A DNA stretch of 40,389 nt, taken from IMG/VR virus record IMGVR_UViG_3300025120_000160, positions 1-40,389 of that record; one strand, written 5' to 3'. The stretch comes from a virus. This document shows positions 25,033 through 28,763 of this stretch, piece by piece. Position 1 is the first letter of the stretch, and each line of letters begins with the position of its first letter. Under the pieces are notes generated by a model. It worked only from the letters and a program-made list of their open reading frames with translations, was not told the origin of the DNA and ran no database searches. A program made the position numbers and the translations under genes.

Positions 25033-25078
25033 TATTCTTTCCTTTCTAATATAATGTAATTTATTATAACAAATTATT

Positions 25079-25122
25079 TGCTACAGACACTAAAAAAATG
25101 AAAAGGTAGCCCGAAGGCTACC
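25079..25122 (-). promoter_or_regulatory. Leader element copy 8 with UUCG terminator
   Basis: Reading the minus strand: a 7-bp stem GGTAGCC/GGCTACC with the stable TTCG tetraloop (25122-25105), a T-rich tail TTTTCATTTTTTT, then AGTGTCTGTAGCA (25091-25079). The first part is a good intrinsic terminator. The second is the 5' half of the repeated leader; here no GGAG-loop hairpin follows. TTATAAT lies 16 bases further on, so this copy may overlap a conventional promoter for the mini-operon. Confidence 0.6.
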
Positions 25123-26324: not shown

Positions 26325-26380
26325 TATTGGTAGCCTCCTATTGCTACAGACACGGCATACGCGCGTATATACGCGTATGC
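26325..26380 (-). promoter_or_regulatory. Leader element copy 6
   Basis: Minus strand, 5' to 3': a 9-bp hairpin GCATACGCG/CGCGTATGC (26380-26355) that is itself an alternating tract, C, GTGTCT (26353-26348), stem arm GTAGC (26347-26343), loop AATAGGAG with the Shine-Dalgarno, stem arm GCTAC (26334-26330), CAATA, then ATG. Pairing of GTAGC with GCTAC is perfect. Confidence 0.7.
26355..26380. repeat. Alternating purine-pyrimidine tract 3
   Basis: Twenty-six bases of perfect alternation, nearly palindromic, running from GCATACGCGCG to CGTATGC. It doubles as the upstream hairpin of leader copy 6. Confidence 0.7.
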
Positions 26381-26392
26381 TCTAATGTATTT

Positions 26393-26572
26393 TTATTTTG
26401 TACAATACCCCGCCTCGATCAGCTCAACCGCTCTGCGGCCGAACCATCCTTGAAGCGTCCAAGCGTAGCCAGTGTCAATCAATGTCTGCCATGCTTCGAT
26501 GTACTGTTCTTCGTTTTCGGGTTCTGTCATACCTTCACAGATACCAACAGCATCAAAAATACTTTTAATCAT
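26393..26572 (-). CDS. 59-aa widespread small phage protein
   Basis: Start at the ATG overlapping the upstream stop (ATGA), served by GGGAGG; a longer start five codons earlier would begin inside that ribosome site. The core AWQTLIDTGYAWTLQGWFGR is a signature I know from many phages (AWQ-x-LIDTG-x-W-x-LQGWFGR-x-A-x2-LI), possibly catalogued as a domain of unknown function. Here it is complete. Function unknown. Confidence 0.8.
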   Translation of the reverse strand: MIKSIFDAVGICEGMTEPENEEQYIEAWQTLIDTGYAWTLQGWFGRRAVELIEAGYCTK

Positions 26573-26724
26573 TTGTCTTCCTCCCATTTAAGAGCATTGT
26601 CTGAATACTCCATTATCTTATCAGCAACTGTTTGATAGTCTTCATCATCTAACAATTCTTGAGTAAGTTTTGTTTCTCCATATGCGATCTCAAATATATA
26701 TTTAATAAATTGCTCTTTGTTCAT
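26569..26724 (-). CDS. 51-aa acidic hypothetical protein
   Basis: Real start at MNKEQFIKYIFEIAYGE, directly after leader copy 5; the frame stays open upstream but those codons are the leader hairpin and the alternating tract. The chain is acidic (LLDDEDYQTVADKIMEYSDN). Its last codons carry the ribosome site of the next gene. Function unknown. Confidence 0.65.
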   Translation of the reverse strand: MNKEQFIKYIFEIAYGETKLTQELLDDEDYQTVADKIMEYSDNALKWEEDK

Positions 26725-26756
26725 AATATATGGCCTCCTAATTGCCATAAACACTG
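26725..26756 (-). promoter_or_regulatory. Leader element copy 5
   Basis: Minus strand: CAGTGTTT (26756-26749, one change from AGTGTCT), stem arm TATGGC (26749-26744), loop AATTAGGAG, stem arm GCCATA (26734-26729), then TATT-like spacer and ATG. Stem of 6 bp. Instead of a GC-rich hairpin, alternating tract 4 lies directly upstream. Confidence 0.65.
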
Positions 26757-26763
26757 AAAATCT

Positions 26764-26789
26764 CGCGCGCGTATATATACATATATGCA
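26764..26789. repeat. Alternating purine-pyrimidine tract 4
   Basis: Twenty-six bases of perfect alternation: CGCGCGCG, then TATATATACATATATGCA, followed by TTTTTTT on the plus strand. A plus-strand stem GCGTATAT/ATATATGC is possible. It is the closest relative of tract 2. Confidence 0.7.
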
Positions 26790-26921
26790 ATTTTTTTATC
26801 ACGGAGTAGACGTCTAACCGCCTGCGGATGCAATAGTCTGTTAGCTTCTGCCTTTTCTACCCCGTTTACGCGAGGATCTCGTGCGAAGTAGAATCTTCAT
26901 TATGAGATTCCGAAGTACACG
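26790..26921. other. Non-coding stretch with strong stems
   Basis: No gene supported. Visible structure includes CTAAC/GTTAG enclosing CCG-CCTG-CGG, a 7-bp GGGGTAG/CTACTCC pair on the minus strand (26863-26803), and at 26879-26922 a hairpin TCGTG ... GAATCT / AGATTC ... CACGA whose internal loop carries CGAAGTA on both sides. In plus-strand RNA that loop could form stacked purine pairs. Which strand is transcribed is unknown. Confidence 0.35.
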
Positions 26922-27035
26922 AAAAAATAGCAAGGCTTGTTGATAAAACATTTAGCACTGGCCGGTGATCACGTCCGGATAGTAGTTAAGCGGGTAAAAT
27001 TTAAAAACCTACCCCTTCATGGTTTACCTTGCTAC
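26922..27035 (-). ncRNA. Candidate ~115-nt structured RNA
   Basis: On the minus strand TAGCAAGG (27034-27027) pairs with CCTTGCTA (26935-26928), which is followed by TTTTTT, the layout of an intrinsic terminator closing the whole RNA. Inside lie TACCC-type stem GGGTA/TACCC (27014-27010 with 26996-26992) and CCGG/CCGG (26978-26962). It begins at leader copy 7 and contains no reading frame above three codons with the proper start. Expression is not shown. Confidence 0.5.
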
Positions 27036-27081
27036 AGACACTGAAATTTTTTAGGGAGACGCGGCTTGTGGACCGCGTCTC
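27031..27081 (-). promoter_or_regulatory. Leader element copy 7 heading a non-coding RNA
   Basis: Minus strand: 9-bp hairpin GAGACGCGG/CCGCGTCTC (27081-27056), CCTAAAAAATTT, then CAGTGTCT (27043-27036) and GTAGC (27035-27031). No GGAG loop hairpin follows; instead the GTAGC arm pairs about 95 bases away with GCTA. This copy suggests that AGTGTCT acts at the RNA 5' end or as a promoter, not only in translation. Confidence 0.6.
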
Positions 27082-27092
27082 GCGGGAGGTAT

Positions 27093-27194
27093 TTATGAAT
27101 TTAATTTTAGTCTTCTTAGATAGAGATCATTGTTAGCTTTCCATTCTTTCTCTTCGATTATGTTTTTTATTTTTTTAATAATAAAGTTTAACAT
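27093..27194 (-). CDS. 33-aa basic peptide
   Basis: MLNFIIKKIKNIIEEKEWKA then NNDLYLRRLKLNS. The ATG follows leader copy 4 with GGAGG at good distance, the same way the larger genes of the block start, which supports coding despite the length. It looks like one amphipathic helix. Function unknown. Confidence 0.55.
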   Translation of the reverse strand: MLNFIIKKIKNIIEEKEWKANNDLYLRRLKLNS

Positions 27195-27241
27195 TGTTGA
27201 TGGCCTCCTATTGCCATAGACACTGGGGCCCTAAGGCCCCA
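27195..27241 (-). promoter_or_regulatory. Leader element copy 4
   Basis: Minus strand: 7-bp hairpin TGGGGCC/GGCCCCA (loop TTAG, 27241-27224), GTGTCT (27223-27218), stem arm ATGGC (27217-27213), loop AATAGGAG, stem arm GCCAT (27204-27200), CAACA, ATG. Confidence 0.7.
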
Positions 27242-27245
27242 TGTT

Positions 27246-27536
27246 TTATAAGCTTCCGCCAAATTGTCTAAAAGTTTCTAGAGTGTAAGATCTTTTTTGA
27301 TCTAGGGGTGAAACATCATAATTATTTTTGTTCCATCTTCTAACATACCAAGCGGCGATGTCTTCTTGAGCTTCACCAACAAATCTAAAAGCTTCGTACG
27401 GTTCGTCTTTATTGAAATTACCCCAGTGTTTATCATTTACAGTGAAGTAAAGTTCACGAGTATTATCGTAAATCACGGTAAACGGCCCGTGAAAATCAGT
27501 AGGATATGTTTCTAAAGTATATCTTTTGTATTCCAT
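27246..27536 (-). CDS. 96-aa hypothetical protein
   Basis: MEYKRYTLETYPTDFHGPFT, rich in Tyr, Phe and Trp, with likely beta strands (YTLETYPTD, FTVIYDNTRELYFTVND) and a helix EDIAAWYVRRWNKNN. The start follows leader copy 3. Single-gene unit between two leader hairpins. No family recognised. Confidence 0.7.
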   Translation of the reverse strand: MEYKRYTLETYPTDFHGPFTVIYDNTRELYFTVNDKHWGNFNKDEPYEAFRFVGEAQEDIAAWYVRRWNKNNYDVSPLDQKRSYTLETFRQFGGSL

Positions 27537-27587
27537 AATAAGTAGCCTCCCATGCTACAGACACTGGGAGGACCAAAAGGCCCTCCC
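27537..27587 (-). promoter_or_regulatory. Leader element copy 3
   Basis: Minus strand: hairpin GGGAGGGCC/GGTCCTCCC with TTTT loop and one G-U pair (27587-27566), AGTGTCT (27565-27559), stem arm GTAGC (27558-27554), loop ATGGGAG, stem arm GCTAC (27546-27542), TTATT, ATG. Confidence 0.7.
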
Positions 27588-27593
27588 TATAAA

Positions 27594-27941
27594 TTAATCC
27601 GGATTTGAACTCATATAAGCATCAAATCCAACCTCTCTAAACATTTCTGCATACTTCTCTGCGCCAATTTCTTTTAAATCCATTGACTGGTAAGTTAACT
27701 TAAAACCCGCGGGATTACTAAGATATAGACCGCCGCCGTAGTTATCATTAAAACCCAATTCTTTGAGTAACTTACCTACTCTTGAATTGCCTCTTACACC
27801 TTTAACAACAACACCGGCAAAACCACAATAAAATGGTTCGCCGTGTTTCTCTATAAAATCAGTGACTGCTTTTTTAGCAGCCATCACTGCTTCATGATGA
27901 AGTATGTTGATAGTGTATAATTTTTCTTTTTCTATTTTCAT
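27594..27941 (-). CDS. 115-aa phage protein of CGFA-type family
   Basis: Start set at 27941 (MKIEKEKLYTINILHHEAV), right after leader copy 2; 30 further open codons upstream are the leader itself. The sequence PFYCGFAGVVVKGVRGNSRV, GGGLYLSNPAG, QSMDLKEIGAEKYAEMF and the final FDAYMSSNPD match a widespread uncharacterised phage family with CGFAWV and SQSMDVKE-type motifs. Compact alpha/beta. Function unknown. Confidence 0.8.
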   Translation of the reverse strand: MKIEKEKLYTINILHHEAVMAAKKAVTDFIEKHGEPFYCGFAGVVVKGVRGNSRVGKLLKELGFNDNYGGGLYLSNPAGFKLTYQSMDLKEIGAEKYAEMFREVGFDAYMSSNPD

Positions 27942-27989
27942 AACAAATGGCCTCCCTGCCATAGACACTGGAGGGCCAAAAGGCCCTCC
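27942..27989 (-). promoter_or_regulatory. Leader element copy 2
   Basis: Minus strand: 8-bp hairpin GGAGGGCC/GGCCCTCC with TTTT loop (27989-27970), AGTGTCT (27969-27963), stem arm ATGGC (27962-27958), loop AGGGAG, stem arm GCCAT (27951-27947), TTGTT, ATG. Confidence 0.7.
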
Positions 27990-27996
27990 GGAAAAT

Positions 27997-28449
27997 TTAG
28001 AAGTGAGGGTCACGATATTCGTGACGATCACCGAGGCTAACCACAGCCCATCCGTTTTTATTAAAACGTTTGGTCTTGTGGTTAAAATCAGCCCTCTGAA
28101 GTATGAAGACTAATTCATCGTTGTCGTCTTTAAAGAAGACAACCTCAGCCCAACACCAACCCCCTTGAGGATTAGGTGTGAATTTGTATTTAGGCTGATC
28201 GCTAAAGCTTTTAGCCTTCTCGATCACTTCCTTATGGTCTTTTGTGACCTTAAGGTAAGTACGGCCCGCTTTGGTCTGTACGACCTCTTGAACCGTAGCG
28301 GCGTGGCTGTCAGACCACATGTTGATGGTAGCCGGTGTTCCGACTTCCAACATATTACTAGGATAGTAGACCCTAGCCCTTTGATAGTTAACCAAAGAAC
28401 CAACATCTCTACCTAGATTAGGTAGTTTAATATTGTTAGGTAGTTTCAT
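27997..28449 (-). CDS. 150-aa hypothetical protein
   Basis: MKLPNNIKLPNLGRDVGSLV, then a probable SH3-like or beta-barrel region (YYPSNMLEVGTPATINMW, SHAATVQEVVQTKAGRTYLK, GWCWAEVVFFKDDNDELVFI). Translation starts from leader copy 1. It is the largest gene of the small-gene block and the first on its strand. No known motif; the beta-rich N-terminal part could bind nucleic acid, but this is only a guess. Confidence 0.7.
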   Translation of the reverse strand: MKLPNNIKLPNLGRDVGSLVNYQRARVYYPSNMLEVGTPATINMWSDSHAATVQEVVQTKAGRTYLKVTKDHKEVIEKAKSFSDQPKYKFTPNPQGGWCWAEVVFFKDDNDELVFILQRADFNHKTKRFNKNGWAVVSLGDRHEYRDPHF

Positions 28450-28494
28450 AATATATAGCCTCCCGTGCTATAGACACAGCGGGATAACCCGCTG
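28450..28494 (-). promoter_or_regulatory. Leader element copy 1
   Basis: Minus strand: 7-bp hairpin CAGCGGG/CCCGCTG with TTAT loop (28494-28477), merging into TGTGTCT, stem arm TATAGC (28472-28467), loop ACGGGAG, stem arm GCTATA (28459-28454), TATT, ATG at 28449. Stem of 6 bp. Confidence 0.7.
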
Positions 28495-28509
28495 TCAGTG
28501 TTTCGGCCA

Positions 28510-28763
28510 TTAAGGCCTCATCAGTATAGCTTTGGAGTGTGAAACTGTTCCCAGTGGTGTGGCATCTTCTGTGATACCCTCTTCAGTAGTGTCTTCTGTT
28601 ATTCTACCCAGTTCGCCCTTTTTGACTTGCCCCTATTTTGTTCGCCTCGGGGCCAGTGGTCTATCTTAAAAAGATAAGTTACCATACCATGTGGTACAGT
28701 ATCGTCAACAGCTAAATCAAATAAAATTGGTCACAATTGTCGCACTTTGATAAAGTTACTCAC
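28510..28763 (-). pseudogene. Broken small gene spread over two or three frames
   Basis: Protein-like sequence continues across frames: SKCDNCDQFY, then FDLAVDDTVPHGMVTYLF and KIDHWPRGEQNRGKSKRANWVE, then ITEDTTEEGITEDATPLG up to LMRP and TAA at 28510. Adding one T in the run at about 28728 and one A in GAATAAC at about 28600 would join all three. There is no clean ATG at the front (a GTG at 28763 is in another frame). Either a decaying gene or two homopolymer sequencing errors. A CxxC suggests a zinc site. Confidence 0.45.

Follow-up and report, generated by a model that had tools for sequence, protein, structure and literature searches.

Hammerhead ribozymes show a persistent link to phage genomes, and a review that draws attention to this link calls the role of the prokaryotic hammerheads an open question (PMC6155905). 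Complete hammerheads clustered around prophage genes, three tandem sets of which were active in vitro, were described by Perreault et al. (2011, PMC3088659), who proposed that they cut long phage RNAs into pieces of single-gene or operon length. Most natural hammerheads self-cleave instead of cutting in trans (PMC6412130, a paper of 2019), and the review also treats a discontinuous hammerhead found in the 3' untranslated regions of mammalian Clec2 messages (PMC6155905). The present work concerns a row of small genes on the minus strand of the genome of a marine-type phage (IMG/VR virus record IMGVR_UViG_3300025120_000160, positions 1 to 40,389; this whole stretch of 40,389 nucleotides is called the window below), in which a repeated leader precedes the genes and a hammerhead ribozyme, complete as judged by its sequence, lies at the head of the row. 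The best explanation of this array, and one that we consider very likely, is that the single leader ribozyme would cut the polycistronic message at each gene junction and would also trim a small RNA.

The array resembles the clusters of Perreault et al. in the presence of hammerheads in rows of phage genes and in the RNA processing proposed for them, but it differs from those clusters, which have a complete ribozyme at each junction, in that one ribozyme would serve up to a dozen junctions that lack a catalytic core, and in that the cut ends are predicted to be built to fold away. When the window's array was examined for a complete ribozyme at each junction, one per array was found instead. 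Full ribozymes at each junction do occur in other phages (for example L028, L031 and L196), so that the array could serve as a model for the way in which cis-acting ribozymes turn into multi-site enzymes. In its separate ribozyme and substrate strands, with two arms around an NUH triplet, it is like the man-made trans-cleaving hammerheads, of which it would be the natural counterpart, and in the wide separation of ribozyme parts within one transcript it is like the Clec2 hammerhead, which differs in having one site per ribozyme and no part in multi-gene processing. RNase P (ribonuclease P), which works with protein in most organisms, is likewise a natural RNA enzyme with many substrates, but is unrelated in structure and chemistry. 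A literature search whose reach excluded most subscription papers and all preprints found no natural hammerhead with many separate substrates among the titles listed; phage hammerhead clusters with the RNA-processing proposal, and discontinuous hammerheads with one site, are already known. Novelty in the mode of action is considered highly probable. If the explanation is correct, it would give the prokaryotic hammerhead a concrete role, the processing of polycistronic phage messages at each gene junction, would account for a repeated covarying leader that had resembled an unknown regulator, and would supply ready ribozyme-substrate pairs with a predicted built-in release of product.

A first-pass annotation of the window, made from the letters alone, had described six minus-strand leader copies, each with a short stem that carries the Shine-Dalgarno (SD) sequence in its loop. 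All six are present at the places claimed, with stem arms as described (TATAGC/GCTATA at 28478; ATGGC/GCCAT at 27969 and 27224; GTAGC/GCTAC at 27565 and 26354; TATGGC/GCCATA at 26755) and GGAG in every loop, and the GC-rich hairpin that stands upstream is missing solely from the copy at 26755. Two further copies of the left half, which the annotation did not list, lie at 27042, where a predicted structured RNA without a gene begins, and at 25091, at the array end; the pattern GTGT[ACT]T[AG]T[AG]GC occurs eight times in the window, always on the minus strand, where simulated sequence would yield 0.13 occurrences on average. It was also overlooked that the first leader copy belongs to a complete hammerhead ribozyme. 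The features of the array, in window coordinates and with ^ at the predicted cleavage position, are as follows.

28681..28708, minus strand: sigma-70-like promoter candidate TTGACG-16-TATGGT, a consensus match upstream of the ribozyme leader
28538..28680, minus strand: conserved leader segment 5' of the ribozyme, from the alignment of relatives
28467..28537, minus strand: complete type I hammerhead ribozyme (detector, RNAalifold, compensatory changes), consisting of CUCC (28537-28534), stem I 5' strand GCUAUA (28530-28525), core CUGAUGAG..CGAAAC (28524-28500), substrate arm ACACU, 3' hairpin and cleavage site GUGUC^UAUAGC
28455..28478, minus strand: site 1, the cis site, UGUGUC^UAUAGC with SD hairpin, before the gene at 28449-27997
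27947..27969, minus strand: site 2, AGUGUC^UAUGGC with SD hairpin, before the gene at 27941-27594; hairpin 27989-27970 at the 3' side of the gene upstream
27542..27565, minus strand: site 3, AGUGUC^UGUAGC with SD hairpin, before the gene at 27536-27246; upstream hairpin at 27587-27566
27200..27224, minus strand: site 4, AGUGUC^UAUGGC with SD hairpin, before the gene starting at 27194; upstream hairpin at 27240-27225
27031..27042, minus strand: site 5, AGUGUC^UGUAGC, gene-less; the predicted cut would form the 5' end of a predicted structured RNA at 27036
26926..27036, minus strand: cloverleaf-like small-RNA candidate, closed by (U)GUAGCAAGG...CCUUGCUAU and starting at the predicted cleavage site
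26730..26755, minus strand: site 6, AGUGUU^UAUGGC (GUU variant) with SD hairpin, before the gene at 26724-26569; without upstream hairpin
26330..26354, minus strand: site 7, CGUGUC^UGUAGC with SD hairpin, before the gene at 26324-26106; upstream hairpin at 26380-26355
25063..25091, minus strand: site 8, AGUGUC^UGUAGC, array end, loop without SD, 13 nucleotides after a terminator-like hairpin at 25122-25105

The element at 28537-28467 is, on the evidence of its sequence and alignment, a complete type I hammerhead ribozyme. Its layout on the minus strand is CUCC-AAA-GCUAUA-CUGAUGAG-stem II-CGAAACACU...GUGUC^UAUAGC, the part upstream of the first leader copy reading GCUAUA-CUGAUGAG-GCCUUAAUGGC-CGAAACACU, and the conserved hammerhead core (CUGAUGA, GAAA and GUC) is found in the window and in its relatives. 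RNAalifold, applied to 16 aligned relatives, recovered stems I, II and III without prior instruction, stem I being open; the helices are paired in 100% of the alignment cells, and three of the four stem II pairs have compensatory changes on both sides. The Rfam model Hammerhead_3 scores 20.6 bits against the window ribozyme, which is under the gathering score of 48.5, probably because of the bulged stem III, and the gathering score is a curation threshold and not a defining property. The sequence CUCC, present in all 18 of the ribozymes with these arms, sits three bases before GCUAUA (two in L021). No Rfam family, whether riboswitch, thermometer or leader, matched at its gathering score in the window or in 16 array loci; the first-pass annotation had not recognised the leader as a known riboswitch or RNA thermometer.

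The conserved half of each leader, AGTGTCTRTRGC, is the predicted substrate strand of the leader ribozyme: AGUGU can pair with ACACU to form stem III, URURGC with GCUAUA to form stem I, and GGAG with CUCC, while the hammerhead detector finds no catalytic core in the repeated leaders themselves. The rules that a substrate should follow were evaluated on 95 sites which had been collected by their SD and ribosome-binding half alone, a procedure that lessens bias in the left half. In these sites GTGT and U1.1 are nearly invariant, and position 17 is C in 90, U in three, A in two and G in none, as the hammerhead requires at NUH. The two variable positions of stem I are occupied only by A or G, the partners of the U in the ribozyme, and the arms pair with the ribozyme using at most one stem I wobble; the two-wobble form GTGGC has no occurrences (family-by-arm states 11/22/21/0, Fisher p=3e-7), although the hairpin alone would permit it, and a limit set by hairpin stability is an alternative explanation for this point. 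The cis site of contig L009 has become UUGUC, without AGTG, yet its ribozyme retains ACACU, which matches its other sites. Among the contigs, which are not independent of one another, base 15.5 of the ribozyme covaries with base 16.5 of the site: 64 of 109 combinations are paired, against 47.8 under permutation (p=0.007).

A scan of IMG/VR contigs for the leader gave 22 stretches, many with several copies and some with up to 12, among rows of small genes. The sites stand before 47 protein families, so that the recent duplication of whole gene units does not account for the copies, and each array has one core. With a detector that covered all three hammerhead permutations, one complete hammerhead was found per array, at its head, in every contig that contains an array start, and none at the internal sites (in L009 the cis stem III does not reach the detector's cut-off for that stem, and the ribozyme was located by pattern). 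Within 6 kb downstream of the ribozyme there are seven core-less sites in the window, 11 in L007, nine in L012 and nine in L071, and there are none upstream or on the other strand, whereas among 187 other phage hammerheads, taken from the matches listed in a survey of viral contigs that is a sample, 168 have no such site, 18 have one and a single one, L173, has two. A wider scan for CUCC combined with a hammerhead gave no further arrays among the matches listed; relatives of the window phage by TerL that are approximately 59-82% identical have no arrays, and the isolates with the closest TerL (Pelagibacter phages HTVC023P and HTVC027P, 023Pt_psg01 and DSL-LC04) have neither ribozyme nor sites in the stretches read. 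An end element like site 8 is also found in L005/L024, L007, L009, L012, L015, L022 and L071. Gene order differs between contigs, and the sequence of the site travels with the downstream gene while the hairpin travels with the upstream gene. Integron-like cassettes, with the sites as points of exchange between genes, had been considered and were dropped once the sites were matched to the ribozyme arms, and the window proteins that were scanned include no tyrosine recombinase. Leader loops look homogenized within a genome: the majority are AATTAAGGAG or ATTAAGGAG in L014/L071, and in other phages AATA, AACA or AAAA before GGAG is the usual form. One 3 kb contig with six sites (L036, JAURDE010000206.1) is binned in a Bdellovibrionota metagenome-assembled genome, which may point weakly to a host or reflect an error of binning.

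The comparison hammerhead with two core-less sites belongs to a second group of phages (L173, L352, L356, L359, L360, L363, L367, L368, L371, L378 and L379), several contigs of which are closely related to each other (up to 99.9% identical). Each has a single hammerhead, whose arms are GGUUAA and ACACCG, and from one to five core-less sites of the form GUGUC^UUAACC. As read from these sequences, the change of ribozyme from one phage group to the other is matched by a change of the sites. An upstream hairpin precedes 26 of 32 of these sites, against six when shuffled, and ATG follows, but the SD hairpin is missing, which suggests that this hairpin is an extra and not the essence of the system. 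A tblastn comparison gave no protein similarity between the second group and the window phage on the stretches compared, and no hammerhead was detected in phage C75C1, which is related to the second group.

In 10 of 11 contigs ACAC is unpaired in the predicted fold of the 5' self-cleavage product, since a longer 3' hairpin takes up the former cis-substrate strand, and the GCUAUA strand and CUCC are likewise single-stranded in the predicted cleaved ribozyme. Among comparison type I hammerheads a free arm is found in three of 175, L173 among them. When the cleaved ribozyme is folded together with another site of its own contig, a full hammerhead is the complex of lowest energy in seven of nine cases, and a whole hammerhead is likewise obtained between the ribozyme and several of the sites in the window. 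Of the signs that the ribozyme is designed for action on other sites, we regard the free arm in these folding models as the strongest.

Covariation supports the view of the first-pass annotation that the leader is a selected RNA structure. In 50 distinct copies of the SD hairpin 99.6% of the stem cells pair, 35 cells have changed on both sides, and none of 500 shuffles reaches so high a covariation. Arms change within the orthologous families F01, F09, F10, F12, F16 and F19, and do so together with their partners, so that pairing is not lost without compensation. The upstream GC hairpin stands just before 93 of 100 distinct sites, against 15 of 100 when shuffled, and abuts the site in 57; its recurring combinations indicate that it belongs to the upstream gene. 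Since sites without an SD hairpin occur in the second phage group and the left half is kept at gene-less places, the SD hairpin is probably the form taken by the cleaved 5' end and not the primary element.

These elements can be assembled into a mechanism. The array would be one transcription unit, and a single transcript is most likely because a scan of the minus strand found no promoter-like site from 28681 to 25868, nor did it score any of the internal hairpins as terminator-like. The leader ribozyme would first cut itself off at site 1, whereupon its own substrate strand would be drawn into the longer 3' hairpin and the ACAC(U) arm freed. The freed RNA could then bind the other junctions through AGUGU, URURGC and GGAG, supplying the sole catalytic core, and cleavage would follow C, U or A at position 17, either in trans or through a loop of the same transcript. 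The upstream message would end in a protective hairpin, while the new 5'-OH-URURGC end of the downstream product would fold on GCYAY, displacing the ribozyme, capping the 5' end and showing the SD in a loop; at the gene-less site a small structured RNA would start at the cut. Sequence and comparison establish the ribozyme, its complementarity to the sites, the single core for many sites, the hairpins, the covariation and the second phage group with its different arms; the cleavage itself, its action in trans or across a distance in the same transcript, its turnover and its benefit to expression are inferred. It is rather likely, with less confidence than the processing as such, that the freed hammerhead acts as a trans-acting multiple-turnover enzyme on the set of phage messages and the small RNA, in two lineages with different arms. 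During infection the system may provide stabilized single-gene messages, exposed SDs, maturation of the small RNA and perhaps even expression of reshuffled cassettes.

The same reshuffling of genes, in which the site goes with the downstream gene and the hairpin with the upstream gene, would also arise if site 1 alone were cut, in cis, and the other copies were a shared ribosome-binding leader spread by recombination between junctions, which would look like substrates because any cassette may sometimes sit first behind the ribozyme. This is unlikely, because it does not lead one to expect that GTGT and U1.1 are nearly invariant at all array positions, including the gene-less sites and the array end, or that L009 keeps ACACU though its cis site no longer needs it; the arm that is freed by self-cleavage would have no use, and the pattern recurs in the second group, where the arms differ and the SD hairpin is missing. 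Recognition of AGUGUC and the SD hairpin by a protein, either an RNA-binding regulator or an endonuclease, with a ribozyme that merely shares the sequence, was the first option of the first-pass annotation, and a conserved hairpin with a covarying stem and the SD in its loop is a usual layout of a protein-binding site. We nevertheless regard it as very improbable: AGTGTC and URURGC match both arms of a hammerhead in the same leader, and the complementarity to both arms and to CUCC, the hammerhead rule followed at position 17 (H17), the exclusion of two wobbles, the matching change of arms and sites in the second group and the sites without a hairpin would all be left unexplained. No Pfam family was found in the array proteins tested, among which a novel protein family is possible. 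The option of RNA processing, which the annotation had also named, is the one that the evidence favours. The PeSL cassettes known from T4-type phages contain sigma-70 promoters as well as terminators, and the array shares with them short repeated intergenic stem-loop elements tied to modular gene shuffling. That each junction is such a cassette of terminator and promoter is the least probable of these possibilities and barely credible, since the internal hairpins abut AGTGTC without a run of T, the scan places a terminator-like site at the array end and none at these hairpins, only approximately 20-25 nucleotides separate AGTGTC from ATG, and the lack of a promoter-like site between 28681 and 25868 leaves the repeats without a sigma-70 promoter each, contrary to the promoter that had been proposed for the leader.

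Several observations weigh against processing of the message by one leader ribozyme. The stem I arm and ACAC are invariant within the group of the window, so that the evidence for covariation between sites and ribozyme is limited to one position of stem III and to the comparison with the second group, in which the ribozyme has ACAC as well; contigs are related, so that the site counts are not independent. The nearest-neighbour free-energy differences (ddG) of -5.4 to -12.5 are not discriminating when 5% of random windows lie at -9.1, and the lowest-energy cofold is not a hammerhead in L012 and L016. In the second group the state of the arm depends on the hairpin loop, being free in L173, L363, L368 and L379 and paired in the others. 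A terminator-like hairpin precedes the last site of the window, and this site may be absent from the common transcript.

The promoter candidate at 28681..28708 is only suggestive on its sequence, because the region is no richer in promoter-like sites than shuffles, and its TTGAC and ATGGTA are conserved in many related leaders. The candidate small RNA at 27036-26926 has homologues in L014/L071 and L020, the copy in L071 having a cut site on each side, and ARAGORN found no tRNA. Between the small RNA and site 6 a second stretch (26925-26770, minus strand) is predicted to be structured and non-coding and is conserved in L020. Cut sites followed by approximately 115-120 gene-less bases before the next site also occur on the minus strand of L007 near 3986 and of L009 near 10088, and these could be small RNAs. 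Closer to the array end, the minus strand has a match to the manA RNA at 25361-25180 that is weak but significant (31.5 bits, E 1.9e-5) and under the gathering score, and a manA-like sequence with a T-arm-like stretch lies just before the last cut site in L015, L022 and L071. A tiny open reading frame (MFVVLDPW*) at 25144-25118 on the minus strand stands after a strong SD, and the terminator-like hairpin and the last cut site come directly after it; its counterpart near the array end of L015 and L022 reads MIVIVIDDW*, and it could encode a leader peptide.

Hammerheads elsewhere in the survey vary in form and setting. Among ordinary comparison hammerheads (L129, L196, L138 and others) a 5' product hairpin is present in 63 of 172 cases, against 39 in shuffles (maximum 50), a count in which some type III cases include their own stem I. 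Three TerL relatives that are approximately 78% identical (L058, L062 and L066) have no array but carry type II-like hammerheads with almost no stem II, in which a stem I loop of GAGUU or GGGU is complementary to AACUC or ACCC after CUGANGAG, a possible pseudoknot that would replace stem II. In L345 and L346, phages with few SDs, a complete hammerhead stands before several genes (GUC^UUAAYCAAA...AUG). In the cultured pelagiphages L387 (HTVC019P), L388 (Jormungand), L390 (HTVC131P) and L391 (HTVC022P) a MarR-like gene and an integrase have an ordinary cis hammerhead upstream of them, and HTVC019P has an additional second hammerhead, of type III.

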